Shown here one piece after another: positions 1-21,898 of a DNA stretch of 64,000 nt. This DNA comes from Geothrix sp. (GTDB lineage: Bacteria > Acidobacteriota > Holophagae > Holophagales > Holophagaceae): positions 124,001-188,000 of the forward strand of contig NZ_JAHRYQ010000001.1 in the NCBI RefSeq assembly GCF_020622065.1, read 5' to 3'. A program made the translations under genes and the position numbers. The stretch's first letter is position 1. Every line of letters begins with the position of its first letter. Under the pieces are notes generated by a model, which saw nothing but the letters and a program-made list of their open reading frames with translations, ran no database searches and was not told where the DNA came from.

Positions 1-311
1 TCCGGCTTGCCGGCGACGAAGTAGAGATAGTCGCCGCCCAGGCTCAGGTTGGAGGCGGTCTGCTTCACGGAGCCGAAGGTGGCCTCGGGGTAGATGCTGT
101 AGTCCAGCCGGGGCCGCACCATGTGGCCATCGCCCAGATCGAAGGTGCCGTGGACGCCGATGCCGGGGCCCGGCTTGTTGTCGACGAAGTCCTTCAGGTC
201 GCCCAGGGGGAGGTTCACCAGGCCCTGCACGCCGTAGCGCGGGGCCTCGGCCCCGAGGGACAGGGCGGCAGCGGCCAGCGTGGCCAGGGTCAGACGGGGC
301 AGGGTCAGCAT
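1..311 (-). CDS. Secreted/outer-membrane beta-barrel-like protein (N-terminal part)
   Basis: The gene runs off the left edge, so only about 103 N-terminal residues are visible. It starts at ATG 311, preceded by a GGGAGG-type ribosome site. The first 20 residues (MLTLPRLTLATLAAAALSLG) form a typical signal peptide ending near GAEA. The mature part has alternating hydrophobic and glycine-rich stretches (YGVQGLVNLPLGDLKDF, GIGVHGTFDLGDG, RPRLDYSIYP), as in small OmpW/OmpA-like outer-membrane barrels. Family and function cannot be fixed from this fragment. Confidence 0.7.
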   Translation of the reverse strand, partial: MLTLPRLTLATLAAAALSLGAEAPRYGVQGLVNLPLGDLKDFVDNKPGPGIGVHGTFDLGDGHMVRPRLDYSIYPEATFGSVKQTASNLSLGGDYLYFVAGKP

Positions 312-473
312 GGTTCCTCCCGGGGGCTGGCCGACCCGGGGGATCGGCCATGGCGCGGGACCATGTTCGCATGGCCACGGCTTTGCCGCACCCTGCTCCG
401 AATCCAAAAGAAGAGTTAGAATTAAAGGACCAGCTTGGGTTAGATCGTTCGTGATAGCTCTATTCTTTCCATG

Positions 474-499
474 AAAAAGGCGCCCGGGTGGGCGCCTTT
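474..499 (-). terminator. Rho-independent terminator after rplS
   Basis: A perfect 10-bp stem (positions 476-485 with 490-499) has a 4-nt loop. On the minus strand it is followed by a run of five T. It lies 19 nt beyond the rplS stop codon and is a textbook intrinsic terminator for the minus-strand operon. Confidence 0.9.
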
Positions 500-517
500 C
501 CAAAGGGGAGATTCGAC

Positions 518-877
518 TTACTGGGCGCTGTCCGCGCGGCGCTCCTTGAGGCGACCGGCCTTGCCGAGCTTCTCGCGCAGGAAGTAGAGCTTGGCGCGGC
601 GGACCTTGCCGTGGCGCACGACTTCCAGCTTGTCGATGGTGGGGCTGTTCAGGGGGAAGATGCGCTCCACGCCCACGCCGCTCGCGACCTTGCGGACGGT
701 GAAGGAGGTGCGCATGCCGCCGCCCTTGATGCCGATGACGATGCCCTGGAAGAGCTGGATGCGCTCCTTCTCACCTTCCTTCACCTTGACATGCACCTTG
801 ACGGTGTCGCCGGGGGCGATGCGGGGAAGGTCGCTGCGAAGCAGGCTGGCTTCGAGTTGATCGATGATGTGGCTCAT
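518..877 (-). CDS. rplS: 50S ribosomal protein L19
   Basis: 119 aa, the normal length for L19, a large-subunit protein at the 30S-50S interface. The N-terminal half has the L19 signature (PGDTVKVHVKVKEG, RIQLFQGIVIG) and the C-terminal half has GVGVERIFPLNSPTI and KLYFLREK. It is the last gene of a minus-strand operon after trmD, matching the common trmD-rplS order; rpsP and rimM, usually linked, are not here. A strong terminator follows. Confidence 0.98.
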   Translation of the reverse strand: MSHIIDQLEASLLRSDLPRIAPGDTVKVHVKVKEGEKERIQLFQGIVIGIKGGGMRTSFTVRKVASGVGVERIFPLNSPTIDKLEVVRHGKVRRAKLYFLREKLGKAGRLKERRADSAQ

Positions 878-986
878 GTGGGCTCCTGGGCCAGCGGTCC
901 CAAGCCTACGATCAGGCGGACATGGCTCGAAAGTCCCCGGATGGGGAGTCAGTCAGTGTATCCGATAGGCCGGAAAAGGGAAGGGG

Positions 987-1781
987 TCATTCAAGGCGAT
1001 AGCCCTTCCAGCCCTTCGGTTTGGGTCGCTCCCAGTCCTCCGGATGCTCCACCTGCCAGGCGCACCACTGGGCGGGGCGGTCCAGATCCCGCAGGCGGTC
1101 CCTCAGGTAGAGGGTCCACAGGTCGGGCCGCAGGCGCTTCGTCCGGACCATGGCCTCCCGCAGGCGCCAGAGCCGGATGGCCCCGTGATCGCCTCCCTGG
1201 AGGACGGCCGGCACCTCCGCCCCTTCGAAGGTGGCCGGGCGCGTGAAGTGGGGATGGTCCAGCAGGCCGGTGGCAAAGCTGTCCTCCTCGGCGGAGGCCC
1301 CGTTCCCCAGCACGCCCGGCAGCCAGCGGCAGACGGCATCGATGAGGAAGAGGGCCGGCAGCTCGCCGCCGCTGAGGACGGCCTCGCCGATGCTGAGCTC
1401 CTCGTCCACGAGGGCCTCCACCGCCCGCTGGTCCAGACCCTCGTACCGGGTGCAGACCAGGATCAGCTGGTCGAGCCGGGCCAGCTCCAGCACCTTCGCG
1501 TGGGTGAGGGGCGGGGCCGCGGGGCTGAAGTGGATGATGCGCCCCGCGCCCTCCCGGGGCACGGACGCCAGGGTGTCCCGAAGCACCTCCGGCCGCAGCA
1601 CCATGCCCGGACCGCCGCCGAAGGGAGTGTCGTCCACATGGCCGAAGGGGTTGCCGGCGAAGGGCCGGTAGCTGTGGGTGTGCAGTCCATGTCCCAGCTC
1701 CCGGAAGGCCCGGCCGGTGATGCCGAGGCGGGCGGCCTCGAAGAACTCGGGGAAGAGGGTGAGGGCATCGACGCGCATCAA
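987..1781 (-). CDS. trmD: tRNA (guanine-37-N1)-methyltransferase
   Basis: 264 aa. TrmD is the SPOUT-class enzyme that makes m1G37 in tRNAs and prevents +1 frameshifting. Visible signatures are the N-terminal RVDALTLFPEFF, the DDTPFGGGPGMVLRPEV loop, the AdoMet knot (ILVCTRYEGLDQR, then ELSIGEAVLSGGELPALFLIDAV) and the LLDHPHFTRPATFEG segment. Its ATG overlaps the stop of the upstream ExoD-like gene (ATGA), so the two are translationally coupled. rplS follows after about 110 nt. Confidence 0.97.
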   Translation of the reverse strand: MMRVDALTLFPEFFEAARLGITGRAFRELGHGLHTHSYRPFAGNPFGHVDDTPFGGGPGMVLRPEVLRDTLASVPREGAGRIIHFSPAAPPLTHAKVLELARLDQLILVCTRYEGLDQRAVEALVDEELSIGEAVLSGGELPALFLIDAVCRWLPGVLGNGASAEEDSFATGLLDHPHFTRPATFEGAEVPAVLQGGDHGAIRLWRLREAMVRTKRLRPDLWTLYLRDRLRDLDRPAQWCAWQVEHPEDWERPKPKGWKGYRLE

Positions 1782-2380
1782 TGCACCAGGGCGTGGAAGG
1801 CCTTCAGGAAGCCCCGGGCGATGAGGCCGAAGCTGGAGGCGAAGTAGACCGTGTTGCCGAGGGAGGCCGCCGCGCCGATCCAGGCCCAGGTGGGTCGTTC
1901 CTCCAGGAGGGCGGCGCCCAGGAGGCAGAGGATGGCCGCGGGAAGCTGGTTGCCGAAGGGCAGGGGCACGGGGATGGCCAGCAGGAAGCCGGTCCAGGCG
2001 ATGCAGGCGCCCACCCAGCGGTGGTTGAGGGGGCGCCGTTCGGCGCCGCGCCAGCGGAAGCGGTCCAGCTGCGCCTCGAGCTTGGCGAGGGCGTTCTTGA
2101 TGCGGCCCTTGTGGATGGCCTGGTCCTGCACCCGGCGGGGCACCCAGGGATGGGCGGTCCCCCAGGCCAGCTGGGAGCCCAGGGCGATGAGGCCGATGCC
2201 ACCCACCGGGGCCAGCCCGATGTTCAGGCCCGGGACCAGGCTCGGCAGGGAGAGCAGCAGCGTCAGGAGGCCGTAGGTCTGCTCGCCCGCGGCATCCAGC
2301 AGTTCACCCAGCGTGATCTCGCCCTCCGCGTCAAGCAGGGCGTGGAGGGTCTCGAAGAAGGGTTTCGGCGCGGACTGCAC
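1778..2380 (-). CDS. ExoD-like membrane protein
   Basis: 200 aa from a GTG start at 2380, which lies 20 nt after the rlmN stop. A longer in-frame reading from ATG 2506 would overlap rlmN by about 100 nt and adds unconserved sequence. The protein matches the exopolysaccharide-synthesis ExoD family: an N-terminal soluble segment (GEITLGELLDAAGEQTYGLLTLLLSLPSLVPG), a central WVPRR motif and a C-terminal pair of hydrophobic helices. ExoD's biochemical role is unclear. It overlaps trmD by 4 nt. Confidence 0.8.
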   Translation of the reverse strand: MQSAPKPFFETLHALLDAEGEITLGELLDAAGEQTYGLLTLLLSLPSLVPGLNIGLAPVGGIGLIALGSQLAWGTAHPWVPRRVQDQAIHKGRIKNALAKLEAQLDRFRWRGAERRPLNHRWVGACIAWTGFLLAIPVPLPFGNQLPAAILCLLGAALLEERPTWAWIGAAASLGNTVYFASSFGLIARGFLKAFHALVH

Positions 2381-2399
2381 CTGTCCAGCATGACCGAAG

Positions 2400-3707
2400 T
2401 CAGCGTGGTTTCGGGTGCCGGCCTTGGCCTTCCCGTACCAGCTGGCCGCAGGCTCCAGCCACATCCTGCCCGCGGCTGCGGCGGACGCTGACGGGCAGCC
2501 CGGCATCCGAGAGCAGCCGGCAGAGGGCGCCGATGCGGGATTCCTCCGGGGGCTCGAAGCCGCTGCCCTCGTGCGGATTGAACGGGATCAGGTTGATCTT
2601 GGCGGGGAAGCGGCGCGCGAAGGCGGCCAGACGGCGGCCATCCTCCAGGCTGTCGGTGACGCCCTTCAGCAGCACATATTCGAGGGTGATGCGCTCGCCG
2701 GACTGCAGAGGGAAGGCCGCGAGCGCCGTCGCCAGGGCCTCCAGGTTCCATACCCGGTTCACGGGCATGATCAAGGAGCGGTGGATGTCGGTGGTGGCAT
2801 TCAGGCTCAGGGCCAGCCGGGGTCGGCGGGCAAAGGCGCCCAGGCGCTCGATGCCGCTCACCAGGCCCGAGGTGGAGAGGGTGATGCGCCTCGGCGGGAT
2901 GGCCAGGCCCTTGGGATCCGTCAGTGGTCCGAAGGCGGTCATCACATGATCGAGGTTGTGCAGGGGCTCCCCCATGCCCATGAACACGAGATTGACCGGG
3001 CGCTCCGCGGAGTGGCCGTGATGATTCAGCATGGCCACGACCTGGCCCACGATCTCCGCCGCGCTGAGGTTGCGGATGATGCCCATCTGGCCCGTGGCGC
3101 AGAAGGTGCACCCCATGGCGCAGCCCACTTGGCTGGAGAGGCAGAGGGTGACGCGGTCGAGGTCTTCAGAGCCCGGCTCCGGGGGTGTAGGTCGCAGACC
3201 GGACCCCCGGACGGAAAGCCCGGGGTCAGGCTCGGCCTGGCCCGGGCGCGGGGGCTCCGGGGGTGTAGGTCGCAGACCGGACCCCCGGACGGAAAGCCCG
3301 GGGTCAGGCTCGGCCTGGCCCGGGCGCGGGGGCTCCGGGGGTGTAGGTCGCAGACCGGACCCCCGGACGACATAGGGCATGTGGACGCCTTCGACCTGCT
3401 TCCCGTCGGCGAGCTCGAACACATGCTTGGTCGAACCATCGGACGACGGCAGGCTCTGCACGATGGCGGGCCAGGCGAGGTCCACCTCGGCCGTCAGCCG
3501 GGTCCGGAGGGCCTGCGGCAGGTGGGTGAACTGCTCCCAGCGGGTCCAGCGCTGCCGGTAGAGCCCCTCGAACAGCTGCGCGCCCCGCCATGCGGGCTCG
3601 CCGAAGCTCGCGACCAGGGCCTTCAGGGCCGCCAAGTCCAGGCCCGCGGCGTTGGGACGCGGAGCCGAGCCGGCTTCGGGGGCCGGGAGATCCCAGGGCT
3701 GAGCCAT
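2400..3707 (-). CDS. rlmN: Dual-specificity RNA (adenine-C2)-methyltransferase RlmN with an in-frame repeat insertion
   Basis: 435 aa; the family is usually about 350-385. RlmN is a radical-SAM enzyme that makes 2-methyladenosine at 23S rRNA A2503 and tRNA A37. The cluster motif CxxxCxxC (C196, C200, C203, in CAMGCTFCATG) and the C-terminal catalytic cysteine (RRSRGQDVAGACGQL) are intact. Between the N-terminal domain (VEGVHMPYV) and the radical-SAM core lies an extra Pro/Gly-rich stretch (about residues 114-179) made of 2.5 copies of a 26-residue repeat. The surrounding protein is normal, so the insert is probably tolerated. It starts 2 nt after the small upstream gene's stop. Confidence 0.95.
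   Translation of the reverse strand: MAQPWDLPAPEAGSAPRPNAAGLDLAALKALVASFGEPAWRGAQLFEGLYRQRWTRWEQFTHLPQALRTRLTAEVDLAWPAIVQSLPSSDGSTKHVFELADGKQVEGVHMPYVVRGSGLRPTPPEPPRPGQAEPDPGLSVRGSGLRPTPPEPPRPGQAEPDPGLSVRGSGLRPTPPEPGSEDLDRVTLCLSSQVGCAMGCTFCATGQMGIIRNLSAAEIVGQVVAMLNHHGHSAERPVNLVFMGMGEPLHNLDHVMTAFGPLTDPKGLAIPPRRITLSTSGLVSGIERLGAFARRPRLALSLNATTDIHRSLIMPVNRVWNLEALATALAAFPLQSGERITLEYVLLKGVTDSLEDGRRLAAFARRFPAKINLIPFNPHEGSGFEPPEESRIGALCRLLSDAGLPVSVRRSRGQDVAGACGQLVREGQGRHPKPR
3175..3369. repeat. In-frame 78-bp palindromic tandem repeat inside rlmN (2.5 copies)
   Basis: Two full 78-bp units (3175-3252 and 3253-3330) and a 39-bp partial unit (3331-3369) appear identical by eye. Each unit has a strong dyad (TCCGGGGGT paired with ACCCCCGGA, with an inner GGTC-gca-GACC stem; first copy at 3178-3211) and a second GC-rich dyad (GCCCGGG paired with CCCGGGC). 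The period is 26 codons, so the rlmN frame is kept. It resembles REP or Rickettsia-type palindromic elements that insert within genes. Confidence 0.9.
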
Positions 3708-3709
3708 CG

Positions 3710-3970
3710 CTAGTCCATCCGGATCTTGAAGGACTTCATCAGGCGCTTGTCGTCTTCCGAGAAGGGCAGGTCGGCGTCCTCGTCCCCCGGGGCCACGATC
3801 TCCCGCGACCGGGTTCCCATCGGCGAGGCCTCGAGGATGAGCATCAGGCCATAGCCCTGGGCCTGGATCTGGAAGGTGAGATCCCGGCAGTGGTCGTCTT
3901 CCGCCAGGGCCTTGACCAAGGAATCCCCCAGCTCGCTCACCAGATGGTGAAGGTGCTCCGGCAATTCCAT
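3710..3970 (-). CDS. Small conserved-looking protein of unknown function
   Basis: 86 aa, starting at ATG 3970 behind a clear GGAGG site; a longer reading frame extends upstream but runs into the MscS-like gene. The sequence is acidic, begins MELPEHLHHLVSELGDSL, has a beta-like centre (DLTFQIQAQGYGLMLILEASP) and ends SEDDKRLMKSFKIRMD. There is no signal peptide or membrane segment. It lies 2 nt upstream of rlmN and is probably co-transcribed with it. I do not recognise the family. Confidence 0.7.
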   Translation of the reverse strand: MELPEHLHHLVSELGDSLVKALAEDDHCRDLTFQIQAQGYGLMLILEASPMGTRSREIVAPGDEDADLPFSEDDKRLMKSFKIRMD

Positions 3971-4013
3971 GGGACCTCCGCCCCTCCAGGATACCAGTCG
4001 TTCCGGGCAGACC

Positions 4014-5435
4014 CTACAGGCCGAACCAGGCCCGGATCTGTCGCGACCACTGGGCCCGTCGGGATTCCTTCGGCGCCGAGGCCCCGGACGCGTAGAGGGC
4101 CCGGTGTTCGATGAGGTCCAGTAGCCGTTCCAGCAGCTCCGGCTCCCGCTTGAGGGAGGCCTCGAAGGCCTCTTTCGGGAGCTCGGCGACCTCGGCTTCC
4201 GTGAGGGCGACCACGGTGGCGTTCCGCGGGGCGCCCGTGAGCAGGCTGGCTTCGCCGAACCACTGACCCGGCCCGAGTTCCGCCAGGGGTTTCCAGAAGA
4301 TCCCGGTGTAGGGCTCCAGGCGCTCCTCGGCCCGCACCACCTGGAGGGTGCCACGGTGCACGGCGAAGAGCGAATGGCCGGGATCGCCCTCCCGGATGAC
4401 GCCCTCTCCCGGGGCCAGCACCCGCAGGCGGAGGTGGCCGCGGAGATCCTCGGCCCAGTGGTCCGGCAGGCCCAGCTGGCGGACGAGGTCGTGCATCAGG
4501 GCCGGTTCCGGCAGTGGCTCCGGCCGCGCCACCAGGGGAGTCGGGCCGTGGGGGCCCATGAGCCGGAAGCCCTCCCGCGGCAGCACGGTGGCGGCCAGGC
4601 GCGTGGCCTGGAACGCGGCCTGGCGCCCGTGGCGGAATCCCAGGGCCCAGAAGCGCATCTCCAGCACGGCACCGCCCAAGTCCGAGCTGTGGACCACCAC
4701 CTCGGGCCGGTGCTGGGCCGGGTGCGGCAGGCCCCCGAGGGCCCGGGTGAGGTGCTCCAGGGCGGCATGGAGGTCCGGGCGGGGCTCGACGATGACCTTG
4801 GCCGTGCGGCGGTGCAGGCCCGAGGGCACATAGAGGTTCGTCACCACGGCCTGGGCGATGGCGCGGTTGGGCAGGATGTCCATGTCGCCGTTCTCGGTGC
4901 GGAGCTGCACCGTGCGCCAGGTCATGCTCTCCACCTGCCCGATGAGGGTCTCCCGGCCGGGGCCGCCCCGCAGGGTGCCCGTGATCTCCACCCAGTCGCC
5001 GACCTGGAAGGCGGGATCCAGGTGGAGGGAGATGCCGGCGAAAAGGTTGCCCAGCACCTCCTGGAGGCTGAGGCCCACCACGGCCGCGGCGATGGCGCCG
5101 GTGCCCAGCAGCTGGCCCAGGCTCACCTGGAGCACCTGGCGCAGGATGCCGCCCGCCGCCACGAGGTAGAGCACCACCACGAGGAGATCCCGCGCGAAAC
5201 CCGGCGTGGCCGTCTTCCGCTGGCTCAACAGGGGGTCGAGCAGCAGGAAGGAGACCAGCCGGATGGCCCCGTAGGCCAGGACGGACCAGAGGATCACATC
5301 GGCCGCGCGGTGAATGATGGGATGGGAGCTCGTGCGGGGCAGGACGAAGGCCGCCGCCAGCAGCAGCAGGCCGAGCAGCACCCAGGCCGCGATCCGGCGC
5401 GGGGCGCTGACCTTCTCCCTCAAGTCGCGAAACAT
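4014..5435 (-). CDS. MscS-family mechanosensitive channel with C-terminal cyclic-nucleotide-binding-type domain
   Basis: 473 aa. Three N-terminal membrane segments (about residues 14-33, 43-66 and 76-95) precede the pore helix and the MscS hallmark LQEVLGNLFAGISLHLDPAFQVGDWVEI. The MscS beta domain follows (ENGDMDILPNRAIAQAVVTNLY). After about residue 320 there is a cNMP-binding-like barrel (GEGVIREGDPGHSLFAVHRGTLQVV, FGEASLLTGAPRNATVVAL). Such fusions suggest ligand-modulated gating or a regulatory input, but no ligand can be read from sequence. The start at ATG 5435 has only a weak ribosome site. It is 16 nt beyond the ThiE-like gene. Confidence 0.9.
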   Translation of the reverse strand: MFRDLREKVSAPRRIAAWVLLGLLLLAAAFVLPRTSSHPIIHRAADVILWSVLAYGAIRLVSFLLLDPLLSQRKTATPGFARDLLVVVLYLVAAGGILRQVLQVSLGQLLGTGAIAAAVVGLSLQEVLGNLFAGISLHLDPAFQVGDWVEITGTLRGGPGRETLIGQVESMTWRTVQLRTENGDMDILPNRAIAQAVVTNLYVPSGLHRRTAKVIVEPRPDLHAALEHLTRALGGLPHPAQHRPEVVVHSSDLGGAVLEMRFWALGFRHGRQAAFQATRLAATVLPREGFRLMGPHGPTPLVARPEPLPEPALMHDLVRQLGLPDHWAEDLRGHLRLRVLAPGEGVIREGDPGHSLFAVHRGTLQVVRAEERLEPYTGIFWKPLAELGPGQWFGEASLLTGAPRNATVVALTEAEVAELPKEAFEASLKREPELLERLLDLIEHRALYASGASAPKESRRAQWSRQIRAWFGL

Positions 5436-5451
5436 GGGGAAGAGGATACGC

Positions 5452-6006
5452 TCATCGCTCCCGGAAACGCGCCACGGCCCGCGCGGGATCGCCCTCCCAG
5501 AAGGGCCGGATGGCGGCGATGCCCGCCAGCCGGGGGTGATCGAGAGCCGGGGTGTTCCGTGGATCCACGCCGCCCAGGGCCAACAGCCGGGGCCCTCCCG
5601 GGGGAAGCCGATCGAGAAACCGGCGCAGCCGCTCCAGGCCCCAGGGCTCACCCTTGCCGGGGCTGGGGAAGATCGGCGACACCAGCAGCTGGTCGGCGCC
5701 GCGCCGGGTGTCCCACTGATCCTCGTGATGAAGGGGGCGCGAGAGGGGCACCAGCCCCGGCTCCACCTCGGGATGGGCCTCGGGGGCGTGGAGCCCGCAC
5801 CCCGCGGCGAAGGCCACATCCAGCCGGCCGGCCACCCAGAGTTCGACGCCGGGCGCCTGATCCTGGCACCACCGCGTCGCGTCCAGCAAGGCACGGGCCT
5901 CCAGTTGCTTCTCGCGGAGGAGGAAGGCGTCGACCCCGGAGCGCAGCACGGCCGTCCAGCGGTCGCGGTCGAAGCCCAGGCCCGGGGTGATGGCGAGGAG
6001 GATCAT
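5452..6006 (-). CDS. Thiamine-phosphate synthase/TenI-like TIM-barrel protein
   Basis: 184 aa, shorter than typical ThiE (about 205-215). Family features are ITPGLGFDRDRW, the substrate-loop-like LLREKQLEARALL, GCGLHAPEAHPE, GADQLLVSPIFPSPGKGEPWGLERL and ALGGVDPRN. ThiE joins HMP-PP and HET-P in thiamine synthesis, while TenI homologues aromatise the thiazole. No other thi genes are visible, so activity is uncertain. Its ATG overlaps the stop of the aldo/keto reductase. Confidence 0.8.
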   Translation of the reverse strand: MILLAITPGLGFDRDRWTAVLRSGVDAFLLREKQLEARALLDATRWCQDQAPGVELWVAGRLDVAFAAGCGLHAPEAHPEVEPGLVPLSRPLHHEDQWDTRRGADQLLVSPIFPSPGKGEPWGLERLRRFLDRLPPGGPRLLALGGVDPRNTPALDHPRLAGIAAIRPFWEGDPARAVARFRER

Positions 6007-6992
6007 CCGAAGAGGCTCTCCAGCGCGGCGCGATCGAGCTTGGGGATGGCCATGACCGCCGCGTTCTCGACCACATGCTCCGCCCGCCCCATGCCGCAAA
6101 GGGCCGTGGTGACGCCGGGGCAGGAGCGGGTGAACTGCAGGGCCGCCTGGGCGGGTGTGCGGACCCCCAGGGCTTCGGCAAACCCGTCCGGCAGCTGGCG
6201 CAGGATGCGGGCCTGCATGATGGAGGCCGAGGTCTGGACGGAGAGGCCGCAGGCCTGGGCGGCCGCCAGGGGCGTCATGGCCGTGCCGTCCATCACCTGC
6301 GTGGGGGCCAGGAAGGCCTCCGGCAGGGCCAGGTTGAGGGGCAGCTGGATCCAGCGGAAGTGATGGTCCCGGCCCCCGGCGGCCTGGGCGGCCGCCAGCA
6401 GGCGGGCGAGACTCAGGTGCCCGTCCTGCCCGGGCGGCACCCGGAAGCCGTTCCAGGTGGCCACGCCGTAGGCGCGGATCTTCCCAGCGGCCACGAAGCC
6501 CTCGCAGGCCTCGAAGGCCCGGTCGATCATGGCGTAGAAGGCCTCCGGACCCAGGTGGGGCAACTGCTGCTCGGGATTGTGCAGATGGAACAGGTCCAGC
6601 GTCTCGAGACCCAGGGCGTTCCGGCTGATGTCCAGCTGATGACCCAGATACTTCGGCGTCAGGGCGTGGCAACCGTCCACCAGGTCGTCCACGGAAAGGA
6701 TGCCCGGCCCCTCCAGCACCCGGTGGAACCAGGCCCGGGGGCCCTCCTCCGTTCCCCCTTCCGGCATGGGGAGGTAGCCCGCCTTGGTGGAGATGAAGAA
6801 CGCATCGCGGGGAAGGTGCCGGAAGGCCGCGCCCAGGGCCCGCTCCGACCGACCGCCGCGGTAGTTGGCGGCCGTGTCGAAGACCGTGCCCCCCGCGGCA
6901 TGGAAGGCCTGGGCGGCCTCGGCGTAGGCGGCATCGGCGGCGTCCGTGGACGGGCCCAGGTAGGTGCCGAGGCCGAGGGTGCTCAGCTGCAT
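6003..6992 (-). CDS. Aldo/keto reductase
   Basis: 329 aa from ATG 6992 behind GGAGG. AKR-superfamily features are the N-terminal LGLGTYLGP, the catalytic Asp/Tyr segment (TVFDTAANYRGGRSERALG), the lysine in FISTKAGYL and the DLFHLHNPEQQL strand of the barrel. These enzymes reduce aldehydes or ketones with NAD(P)H; the substrate is not predictable. It overlaps the ThiE-like gene by 4 nt. Confidence 0.92.
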   Translation of the reverse strand: MQLSTLGLGTYLGPSTDAADAAYAEAAQAFHAAGGTVFDTAANYRGGRSERALGAAFRHLPRDAFFISTKAGYLPMPEGGTEEGPRAWFHRVLEGPGILSVDDLVDGCHALTPKYLGHQLDISRNALGLETLDLFHLHNPEQQLPHLGPEAFYAMIDRAFEACEGFVAAGKIRAYGVATWNGFRVPPGQDGHLSLARLLAAAQAAGGRDHHFRWIQLPLNLALPEAFLAPTQVMDGTAMTPLAAAQACGLSVQTSASIMQARILRQLPDGFAEALGVRTPAQAALQFTRSCPGVTTALCGMGRAEHVVENAAVMAIPKLDRAALESLFG

Positions 6993-7027
6993 GAAGGAAC
7001 CTCCGGCTCCAGTCTGGCAGCGTCGGA

Positions 7028-8116
7028 TCAGGGGCCCACCACCACCGTGGCGATGGCCCGGATCCGCATCTCCGCCAGGGGGGTGGCCACCACATGGTAG
7101 GTTCCCGGCGTGGTCGGGGCCGTGTAGCGACCGTCGCTGGTGAGGATGCCGCCCATGCCCCGGCCCTCGAGGATCCACCACTCCACGGGCCGCTGGCGGG
7201 GCGGTAGGCCCCCCACGGTGGCCGTGAAGGTCGCGGTGGCGCCGGGTGCGAGCGAAAGGGTGGCGGGGCTGATCTGGACGGTGGCCTTCACGGGGGTCGT
7301 GGCGGCGAACACCTCGATGGAGGAGGTCTGGACCAGGGTCGGGACCGCGACGCTGCGCATCTGGACCTGGACCGTGGCGGGCTGGTCGGGAAGGGTCACC
7401 ACGCCATCGGGGTTGACGCTCCCCCCGCCCGTGATCGTCCAGGCGAGCCGCGTATCGGAGATGCCCGAGAGCCCCTGGGTGAGGGCCACCGTGGTGGCGC
7501 CGGGGAATCTGCCCCCTCCGAACGACACATGGAAAGCCGGCTGGCTCGGGGCCTCCACGATCACCTGGACGGTCTTTTGAAGGCTCGGGTCCGCCAGGCT
7601 GGTGGCGGTGATCGTGCTGGTGCCGGGGAGGGATGGCGCCGTGAAGAAGCCGTCCGCGTCCAGCTGGCCGGCGCCGCTCAGGCTCCAGGCGACCGCGTGG
7701 TTGCCCAGGTTGTTGAGGGGGGCCCTGAACAGCTGGGAGCCGCCCACGGCCAGGTGCAGGGGGCCGCCCGGGGTAATGAAGATCTCCGGCGTGCCGGCCA
7801 CCACCTGGATGGTCGCCGTGGCCTGGTTCTCCCCTCGACGCGCGGTCACATGGTAGGTGCCGACGGTGGCGGGGGCCGTGTAGTAGCCCTGCGCATCGAT
7901 GGTGCCCCCGGAGGCGCCCTCGACCACGGCCCAGCTGACGGTGAGGGGCTGCCCGGCGTCGTTCGTCGCGGAGAACTGGAAGCCGTCCTCCGTGAGCATG
8001 ATCGTCCCGGTCTGGCTGAGGTGGAGGCCGCCCCCGCCGTTGGAGGAACCGCCGCCGCCGCAGGCGAGGCTCCCCAGGAGCGCGAGCAGGAACAGGGCGC
8101 GGAGGAGGAGCGTCAT
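7028..8116 (-). CDS. Lipoprotein with repeated Ig-like domains
   Basis: 362 aa. The start at ATG 8116 has AGGA about 9 nt upstream; an in-frame ATG at 8125 has almost no spacing. A signal sequence ends in a lipobox (LLGSLAC), followed by a Gly/Ser-rich linker. The rest is four to five tandem beta-sandwich repeats with the recurring motif DAQGYYTAPATVGTYHV or DGRYTAPTTPGTYHV, as in bacterial Ig-like surface proteins. It is probably anchored to a membrane and exposed; the role may be adhesion or scaffold. It stands alone between the reductase and bamD. Confidence 0.85.
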   Translation of the reverse strand: MTLLLRALFLLALLGSLACGGGGSSNGGGGLHLSQTGTIMLTEDGFQFSATNDAGQPLTVSWAVVEGASGGTIDAQGYYTAPATVGTYHVTARRGENQATATIQVVAGTPEIFITPGGPLHLAVGGSQLFRAPLNNLGNHAVAWSLSGAGQLDADGFFTAPSLPGTSTITATSLADPSLQKTVQVIVEAPSQPAFHVSFGGGRFPGATTVALTQGLSGISDTRLAWTITGGGSVNPDGVVTLPDQPATVQVQMRSVAVPTLVQTSSIEVFAATTPVKATVQISPATLSLAPGATATFTATVGGLPPRQRPVEWWILEGRGMGGILTSDGRYTAPTTPGTYHVVATPLAEMRIRAIATVVVGP

Positions 8117-19603: not shown

Positions 19604-21736
19604 GTGTTCCACCCCATCCCCCGCCCCGAGGAACTGCTCAACCGCGAGCTCAGTTGGCTGGATTTCAACGCCCGGGTCATGGAGGAGGCGGAGGATCCCA
19701 CGGTGCCGCTGTTGGAACGGGTGAAGTTCCTCAGCATCGTCTCCAGCAACTGGGATGAGTTCTTCATGGTGCGGGTGGCGGGCATCTGGCGGCAGATCGA
19801 CGCCGGCATCACCCAGCCCGGGCCCGATGGCCTGACCCCCCGGCAGCTGCTGGAGCGGGTGTCATCGCGGATCCACGCCTACTCCGCCCGCCAGCACGAG
19901 CTCTTCCACGCCATCCTGGAGCCGCAGCTGGAGGCGGCGGGCATCGCCATCCTGGATCCGAGAAAGCTGGACGAGGCGCAGAGCGCCTTCACCCTCGACT
20001 ACTTCGAGCGGAGCCTCCTGCCGCTCATCACGCCCCTGGCGGTGGACACCGGCCACCCGTTCCCCCGTCTGGGGAACCGCGCTCTGGTGCTGGTGGTTGA
20101 ACTGGAGCCGGACGAGGACCTGCTGGATGGGGATCTGCCGGCCTCGGAGCTCTCCTTCATCCATGTGCCCACGGGCCTGGCCTCCCGGTTCCTGCGGGTG
20201 CCGTCGGCGCCGGGCACCCACGCCTTCGTCATGCTCGAGGATGTGGTGCGGCACCACCTGTCGCGGCTCTTCCTGGGCTACACGGTGAAGTGCTGCCACG
20301 CCATCCGCGTCACCCGGGATTCCGACCTGCCGGTGGAGGAGGATCCCTCCGAGGACCTGCTCAAGACCGTGGAGGAGAGCCTCCGCGACCGCCGCCGCGG
20401 CGCCGTCGTCCGCCTCCAGTACGAGCACGGCCTGTCGTCCAAGGTGCTGGACCTCATCATCGAGGAGATGGAGCTGAGCCCCGAGGACCTCTACCCCTGC
20501 TCGGGCCTCACAGCCTTCTCGGACCTGATGCAGCTCTACGGCCAGCTGGACCTGCCGAGCCTCAAGGACACCCCGCTGCCACCCCTTCCGGTACCCCAGC
20601 TCGACCAGATGGGCAGCGTCTTCGACGCCATCTCCCGCAACGACATCCTGCTGCACCATCCCTACCAGAGCTTCGACGACAGCGTAGTTCGCTTCGTGCG
20701 CGAAGCGGCGGAGGATCCCAAGGTCCTGGCCATCAAGATGACCCTCTACCGCGTGACGGCCAACAGCCCCGTGGCGGCGGCCCTGGAGCGAGCCGCCGAG
20801 CGCGGCAAGCAGGTGGCGGCCATCGTGGAGCTGCGGGCGCGCTTCGATGAGGCGGCCAACATCGCCTGGGCACGCCGCCTCGAGAAGACCGGCGTGCATG
20901 TGGTCTACGGCCTGCCCAATCACAAGATCCACTGCAAGGCCTGTCTCGTGGTGCGCCAGGAGGCCGGGGGCATCAAGCGGTACTGCCACCTGGGCACGGG
21001 CAACTACAACGAGCGCACCAGCCGCCTGTACTCGGATCTGGGCCTGCTCACGGCCCGGCCCGAGTTCGGCGAGGACCTGTCGAACCTCTTCAACATGCTC
21101 ACGGGCTACACCCGGCCGCCCCGCTTCCATCGGATCCTGCTGGCGCCCCAGCACCTGAAGAAGGCCCTCAAGGCCCGCATCCAGCGGGAGATCGGCCACG
21201 CGCAGGATGGGCGGCCGGCCCGCATGGTGCTGAAGATGAATGCCCTGGTGGACCCCCAGATCATCCAGATGCTCTACGAGGCCAGCCGCGAGGGCGTGAA
21301 GGTGGATCTCATCGTGCGGGGCACCTGCTGTCTGCGGCCAGGCGTGCCCGGACTGTCGGAGAACATCCGCACCCTGTCGATCCTGGACCGCTTTCTGGAG
21401 CACACCCGGATCTACCATTTCGCCAATGATGGCCAGCCGGAGACCCTCCTCTCCAGCGCCGACCTCATGCCCCGCAACCTGGACCGCCGCGTGGAGCTGG
21501 CCTTCCCCCTGGTGGATCCGATCCTGGCGGCCCAGGTCATGGAGATGGTCGAGATGCAGCTGCACGACACCCTGAAGGGCCGCGTCCTGGGCCCCGAAGG
21601 GGATGTCCTCCGGCGGGGATTCGATGACCAGGATCCGCCCCTCCGAAGCCAGCTCCGCATCTATGAGCACACCCTGCTCGCCAGCGGCGTGGGCGCCCTC
21701 ACCCAGAAGCTGGGGCCGCTGGATCCAGACATCTGA
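19604..21736 (+). CDS. ppk1: Polyphosphate kinase 1
   Basis: 710 aa from GTG 19604, with GAGG 7 nt upstream; the open frame extends much further upstream but only as antisense to rplY. PPK1 makes polyphosphate from ATP. Features are the N-terminal NRELSWLDFNARVMEEA, the KFLSIVSSNWDEFFMVRVAG segment, the phosphate-binding KMTLYRVTANSPVAAAL and the catalytic His region (VYGLPNHKIHCKACLVVR, then LGTGNYNERTSRLYSD). The second PLD-like half ends IYHFANDGQPETLLSSADLMPRNLDRRVE. A PstS-like gene lies nearby, giving a phosphate theme. Confidence 0.97.
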   Translation: MFHPIPRPEELLNRELSWLDFNARVMEEAEDPTVPLLERVKFLSIVSSNWDEFFMVRVAGIWRQIDAGITQPGPDGLTPRQLLERVSSRIHAYSARQHELFHAILEPQLEAAGIAILDPRKLDEAQSAFTLDYFERSLLPLITPLAVDTGHPFPRLGNRALVLVVELEPDEDLLDGDLPASELSFIHVPTGLASRFLRVPSAPGTHAFVMLEDVVRHHLSRLFLGYTVKCCHAIRVTRDSDLPVEEDPSEDLLKTVEESLRDRRRGAVVRLQYEHGLSSKVLDLIIEEMELSPEDLYPCSGLTAFSDLMQLYGQLDLPSLKDTPLPPLPVPQLDQMGSVFDAISRNDILLHHPYQSFDDSVVRFVREAAEDPKVLAIKMTLYRVTANSPVAAALERAAERGKQVAAIVELRARFDEAANIAWARRLEKTGVHVVYGLPNHKIHCKACLVVRQEAGGIKRYCHLGTGNYNERTSRLYSDLGLLTARPEFGEDLSNLFNMLTGYTRPPRFHRILLAPQHLKKALKARIQREIGHAQDGRPARMVLKMNALVDPQIIQMLYEASREGVKVDLIVRGTCCLRPGVPGLSENIRTLSILDRFLEHTRIYHFANDGQPETLLSSADLMPRNLDRRVELAFPLVDPILAAQVMEMVEMQLHDTLKGRVLGPEGDVLRRGFDDQDPPLRSQLRIYEHTLLASGVGALTQKLGPLDPDI

Positions 21737-21898
21737 TGTTCTCCGGGGGTTCCGCGCTGCGCGCCTCCACCTGACGCCGCGCAGGGCGAGGGGACCTCGC
21801 CCTGGCTTGTGTCCCAATCGGCGCTGGGACGGGCCGATCGGTGCTGTGACGTGTCGGGCATTCATTCCCCGTGGCAGACTAATGGGCTGGAGATCCGC

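Follow-up and report, generated by a model that had tools for sequence, protein, structure and literature searches.

Rickettsia palindromic elements (RPEs; Ogata 2000, 2002; reviewed in PMC10969869 and PMC2229807) are dispersed between genes and, in frame, within unrelated conserved genes, where the fused peptide is translated and the host protein stays plausible. REPs, with their BIME arrangements, are palindromes of 20 to 40 bp that lie near ORF 3' ends and form dimers or clusters inside ORFs; such intragenic clusters encode 20 to 82 amino acids in several species (PMC3733652). For E. coli, reduced translation has been reported where a REP lies no more than 15 nt from a stop codon (PMC12306157 and its reference 17). 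PARCELs are in-frame tandem units of ~25 residues made from palindromic DNA; they vary in copy number, have an amphipathic character, and are known from membrane-targeted ORFs of widely separated taxa.

Here we describe a palindromic element from a 64,000-nt window of a Geothrix sp. genome (assembly GCF_020622065.1, contig NZ_JAHRYQ010000001.1, positions 124,001 to 188,000). By analogy, RPEs are the closest known system in behavior: this element, too, is found at many dispersed or intergenic sites and in frame within unrelated conserved genes, here those for RlmN and an ABC ATPase, each with relatives whose site is empty, and the fused peptide is read as part of a plausible host protein. It differs from RPEs in being a bipartite, two-hairpin element (H1 and H2) of ~78 to 87 bp rather than ~105 to 150 bp, in belonging to another lineage, in the stop-codon phasing of its intergenic copies, and in its 78-bp tandem arrays; the family matches no protein model, and searches of NCBIfam and Pfam showed no homology of its insert peptides to RPE peptides. 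Like REPs and BIMEs it consists of short palindromes near ORF 3' ends and in clusters within ORFs, but it carries no GTAG/CGTC tag, has no RAYT in its genome, and is a fixed H1-spacer-H2 unit at a precise 6-nt distance from stop codons. A strong sense-strand hairpin right behind the stop codon is shared with the E. coli post-stop REPs, whereas the spacing here is tighter (mostly exactly 6 nt), the role is putative, and the E. coli elements belong to another sequence family. Unlike the PARCEL unit, the unit found here is rich in Pro, Gly, and Arg, is predicted to be disordered, and derives from a genus-wide, mainly non-coding element.

Within rlmN, Tandem Repeats Finder reports an array of period 78 with 2.5 copies, 100% matches, and no indels (Table 1), and the perfect, in-frame, palindromic 78-bp repeat noticed in the first-pass annotation of this DNA is thereby upheld. 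On the coding strand each unit comprises H1 (32 nt, CCGGGGGTCCGGTCTGCGACCTACACCCCCGG), a spacer (AGCCCCCGCG), and H2 (27 nt). The two dyads claimed for each unit are real: the RNA fold of the 195 nt reaches -128.8 kcal/mol (z = -6.3, with 0 of 200 dinucleotide shuffles as stable), and the DNA fold gives z = -5.1. The array belongs to an in-frame subfamily with the core CGGYCTGCGRCC, which is found inside two ORFs, rlmN and the tail of an ABC ATPase, in one reading frame. No stop codon interrupts this frame, whose product is VRGxGLRPTPPEPPRxxQAEPxPxx (26 aa = 78 bp). RlmN does contain extra residues, as had been proposed, but the figure of about 66 requires correction to a net gain of 70 codons, since the gap from Met-Pro to Ser-Ser-Gln is 237 nt here versus 27 nt in empty-site relatives.

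Table 1. Positions in the window of rlmN, the parts of its array, and the second family member.
Feature	Position	Strand	Remarks
rlmN, 435 aa, 23S rRNA/tRNA m2A methyltransferase, host of the array	2400..3707	(-)	TIGR00048 match
CAMGCTFC, CxxxCxxC iron-sulfur motif of radical SAM	3099..3122	(-)	intact
Segment missing in empty-site relatives, residues 113-183	3159..3371	(-)	flanks Met-Pro-Tyr112 / Asp184-Arg-Val-Thr-Leu-Cys
Tandem array, 2.5 identical 78-bp units	3175..3369	(-)	coding-strand order H1-H2-H1-H2-H1
H1 hairpin, unit 1	3335..3366	(-)	
H2 hairpin, unit 1	3298..3324	(-)	terminator-like shape, without a T tract
H1 hairpin, unit 2	3257..3288	(-)	
H2 hairpin, unit 2	3220..3246	(-)	identical repeat of 3298-3324
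H1 hairpin, half unit	3179..3210	(-)	
Example of a predicted RlmN peptide spanning the repeat			GSGLRPTPPEPPRPGQAEPDPGLSVR
Second family member, partly decayed	21734..21814	(+)	from TGA stop codon (TGATGTTCTCCGGGGGTTCCGCGCTGCGCGC...)

The host protein scores 311 bits against the RlmN equivalog model TIGR00048 (NCBIfam cut-off, 290), and the nearest named rlmN, from Holophagaceae bacterium UBA692, is 78% identical. An alignment of 56 RlmN proteins bears out the suggestion that the catalytic cysteines survive the insert: C196, C200, and C203 of the CxxxCxxC motif, as well as C189, are invariant. The insert lies directly ahead of the strand carrying Cys189 and this motif. An AlphaFold2 model built from the 56 sequences has a confident RlmN fold (TM scores of 0.93 on 6fz6 and 0.87 on 3rf9, normalized by target), in which the insert forms a predicted loop joining strand 104-112 to strand 185-190; pLDDT falls under 50 over residues 117-127, 129-148, and 155-176. 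The model thus predicts a floppy, disordered loop that leaves the RlmN fold and the cysteines unaffected, at a site that could accommodate a loop.

Among the 46 genomes of the genus that gave rlmN, 14 have the insert. In the other 32 the site is clean and empty, with two codons between Tyr and Arg, as it is in outgroups. The 14 filled species carry 0.5 to 3.5 units at one fixed site (H1 alone in G019, 3.5 units in G023), so that copy number, which the annotation had proposed comparing, varies from 0 to 3.5 between species; the ORF is open in all 14. The outcome named there as counting against a mobile element, the same insert in all relatives and no copies elsewhere, is not what we found, given the 32 empty sites and the dispersed copies described below. 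In G020, the draft assembly is broken within the rlmN array (contigs C188 and C237); copy numbers from draft genomes may therefore be underestimates.

All 14 filled alleles, and no empty one, have a Leu codon immediately ahead of the Asp preceding Arg/Trp-Val, which points to one original rlmN insertion. Presence and absence are nevertheless scattered on the rlmN tree (11 changes versus a shuffled-label mean of 12.3), and a single clade of insert-bearing alleles is rejected (p-AU 1.5e-7). A single capture therefore requires either many precise losses or horizontal exchange of alleles. We considered allelic exchange as the cause of the patchiness and set it aside, as the rlmN flanks hold only a weak exchange signal, within about 40 nt. 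H1 itself is better conserved than the core of the gene. Third-codon-position divergence in H1 is 0.149 versus a core median of 0.394, a core value slightly inflated by the misaligned row of G036, and 0 of 225 14-codon core windows are lower. H1 is identical in G000, G009, and G020, whose rlmN cores differ at 35 to 40% of third positions. The H2 sequences of both units are identical within G000 and likewise within a relative, G010, and differ between the two genomes.

BLAST and pattern searches found the same H1-spacer-H2 arrangement at many other sites in the genome. In the dispersed consensus, H1 is usually near CCGGGGGTTCCGCGCTGCGCGCACACCCCCGG and is followed by ACCCCCGCG and then by a hairpin on GCCCGGC-NNN-GCCGGGC. 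A strict pattern of the H1 outer arms has 10 forward matches in this genome (0 for a reversed control pattern) and matches every one of the 47 genomes of the genus; across 10 further genera of the family it matches once, and control patterns match as often there. With a covariance model built from 46 elements, we obtained 25 matches at E <= 0.01 (28 at E <= 0.1) in this genome and 1,087 in the 47 genomes of the genus, where counts range from 5 to 61 per genome with a median of 22. The search for further genomic copies, as the annotation had suggested, was thus amply answered. Other genera of the family mostly have 0 to 7 matches (exceptions, G052 with 28 and G069 with 13), and none of 16 genomes from two other families of the same class has a match. 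One of the 28 matches in G052, from sister genus g4, lies behind an apparent orthologue of a host gene in G049 and G013. The palindrome family may predate the split of the genus or may have been transferred.

The second member in the window has an altered 3' arm of H1 (CTGCGCGCCTCCACCTGACGCC...). Full elements occur at C1:123697-123780 (-), ~220 bp before the start of the window, and at C1:121087-121174 (-); the two adjoin the ends of neighboring genes, for an outer-membrane-like protein and rpmA, and with the rlmN array make three family loci within ~6 kb. Tandem arrays of ~4 units also lie outside both host ORFs, at G019:C17 1901-2224 and G023:C28 3944-4264.

We therefore favor, with a probability of roughly 0.78, the reading that a genus-wide, REP/RPE-like palindromic element makes up the rlmN insert as a small tandem array, captured once and since subject to frame-preserving, near-neutral copy changes in steps of 78 bp. 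The single capture would have occurred at a surface turn that tolerates a disordered Pro-rich loop. The array would then expand and contract by whole 78-bp units through recombination or slippage, steps that keep the reading frame, while copies within one gene would be homogenized, as the H2 sequences of G000 and G010 suggest. For the enzyme, the insert is probably a near-neutral passenger.

Outside ORFs, the element has a stereotyped place. Lying behind genes, on their sense strand, it usually takes the form [stop codon]-TGYTST-H1-RCCCCCGCG-H2. Of 38 elements, which were picked by the H1 pattern alone and include a few orthologues of each other, 21 have the stop codon of an upstream ORF at precisely 6 nt ahead of H1. 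Since TGA, TAA, and TAG are all used at this one spacing, the stop is the gene's and not the element's. A stop at that spacing within 1 nt is also found for 26 of the 29 top covariance-model matches from the genus, a figure biased toward the stop-codon consensus because the model includes it; in the genome studied here, 12 of 25 non-rlmN matches have the exact spacing and ~16 of 25 are within 3 nt of it. On the 3' side of rpmA, compared in 19 species, the element is whole in 9, altered or enlarged in most others, and missing in G007 and G032, which indicates that copies have been long retained and also gained or lost. In G004, G006, G013, and G029, H1 behind rpmA is enlarged by an extra inner segment with the flanking arms kept, as if something had inserted in its apical part. 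A simple terminator scan made no call for H2 inside rlmN, and some dispersed copies end in CTTTT.

The annotation's suggestion of a selfish element is doubtful: with their stereotyped position and persistence at orthologous genes, most copies resemble RNA elements retained at 3' ends rather than mere parasites. Dispersed copies may act as 3'-end RNA structure, at the transcript end or in mRNA protection, and a post-stop element would perhaps slow ribosomes at the stop in a REP-like manner. Taken further, H1 and H2 could form a functional, non-mobile terminator or stabilizer copied mainly by local duplication and recombination, with the rlmN array as an accidental internal copy. The fixed spacing from the stop codon, the same-strand bias, and the retention behind rpmA in most of the 19 species all suit this explanation, which we consider possible but doubtful. 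It has to accommodate 1,087 dispersed copies with near-identical H1 and the presence or absence of the element at orthologous sites, such as the empty rpmA sites of G007 and G032, and these require some form of dispersal; capture within two ORFs also speaks against it.

The second in-frame host is the C-terminal end of an ABC transporter ATPase, where the insert has the same strand, frame, and 78-bp spacing as in rlmN and encodes V/I-RGxGLRPTPPEPPRPDQAEPAP. Across ~30 orthologues, the insert is intact in G008, G020, G023 (four copies), G024, G025, and G047 and decayed in G035; those without it have a clean empty site and a short tail. Prompted by an out-of-frame TGATGCTGTCCGGGGG in the tail, we considered an origin by stop readthrough into a downstream element, and rejected it because the native C-terminal end of the ATPase and its stop lie past the insert and the empty orthologues are short-tailed. 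Several other weak peptide matches were likewise rejected as in-frame inserts, being wrong-frame reads of post-stop elements.

Over 19 in-frame units, 92.1% of cells are paired and 9 pairs have changed on both sides. The covariation score is 0.226 versus 0.102 for shuffled data (0 of 500), and pairing is lost when partners are slid by one to three columns. One H1 stem pair is T-A in rlmN and C-G in the ATPase, a change that is synonymous on both sides (GGT-GGC, CGA-CGG). Such compensatory changes within ORFs imply that the hairpins persist even in translated copies, and selection or template-directed repair would hold them paired.

This evidence bears on the idea that selection acts on the Pro/Gly-rich repeat as a linker or interaction tail in both RlmN and the ATPase, with the palindrome as a by-product. 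Open ORFs in 14 of 14 insert-bearing species, the RGxGLRPTPPEPPR stretch common to the two proteins, and a pN/pS of ~0.46 among units, a value inseparable from the pairing constraint, could be read that way. We judge it improbable, given that 32 of 46 congeneric rlmN genes do without the insert, the two hosts are unrelated in fold and position, the pairing co-varies, and the insert is modeled as disordered. The same DNA also occurs in non-coding arrays of the in-frame subfamily with broken frames, for example upstream of ubiE in G019. Something of a long shot is the proposal that, throughout the genus, the post-stop hairpin controls translation termination or mRNA ends and that the rlmN copies are either a cis-acting brake, a copy-number-tunable feedback on the A2503-modifying enzyme, or an array skipped by the ribosome or in the RNA, so that mature RlmN would be without it.

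The first-pass annotation had compared the repeat to REPs or RPEs and suggested looking for an associated RAYT. The mobile-palindrome part of this comparison agrees with copies that are dispersed, in frame, and variable in number; the RAYT part failed. A search for Y1_Tnp (IS200-type) gave 0 matches in this genome and positive results in control genomes, so there is no RAYT here, and a Y1 transposase occurs in only 5 of the 47 genomes of the genus. Two of the genomes surveyed, G033 and G035, carry multi-copy IS200-like Y1 transposases with identical scores (six full and one partial, and five, respectively). Among 40 dispersed elements, CGTC is present in 0 and GTAG in 1; CGTC stands at the palindrome edge in some rlmN copies only. 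It is true that REPs, too, are short palindromes near ORF 3' ends and sometimes in frame within ORFs (PMC3733652), but a RAYT-mobilized REP of the GTAG/CGTC class is, on these counts, scarcely credible. No target-site duplication, one mark of a MITE, was readable from the filled and empty rlmN or ABC sites, and the search for a parent transposon covered the Y1 class. Plain tandem duplication of rlmN sequence, with palindromes arising by chance in DNA of ~76% GC in which Tandem Repeats Finder lists several other short repeats, is effectively negligible, being ruled out by homologous elements elsewhere in the genome and in relatives and by the compensatory pairs, as well as disfavored by the fold z of -6.3.

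Database searches placed the element in no described family. The element has no Rfam match (a sub-threshold chance match falls elsewhere in positions 1-8000), and neither it nor its peptide matches PLSDB plasmids. NCBIfam and Pfam hold RPE models, and the insert peptides have no match in either library beyond chance ones with E above 1. We found no description of this palindrome family in the papers searched, and it appears to be undescribed so far. The best reading of the element is a new REP/RPE-like family of protein-coding palindromes with putative mobility and function.

For a long time, protein-coding palindromes passed for something peculiar to Rickettsia and Wolbachia, to which some REP-rich genomes were later added. 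The array in rlmN and its dispersed relatives add an independent example; with 47 genomes in this lineage, alleles of the same genes with and without the element can be set side by side. For annotation, one consequence is that automatic RlmN alignments in the genus take in a non-conserved repeat of 18 to 94 residues. A single family occupies two niches, stop-codon-phased behind genes and in frame within ORFs, and RNA pairing is kept in both. Given these two niches and the paired alleles, such elements can be put to the test as parasites, as regulators at 3' ends, or as a source from which new protein loops arise.
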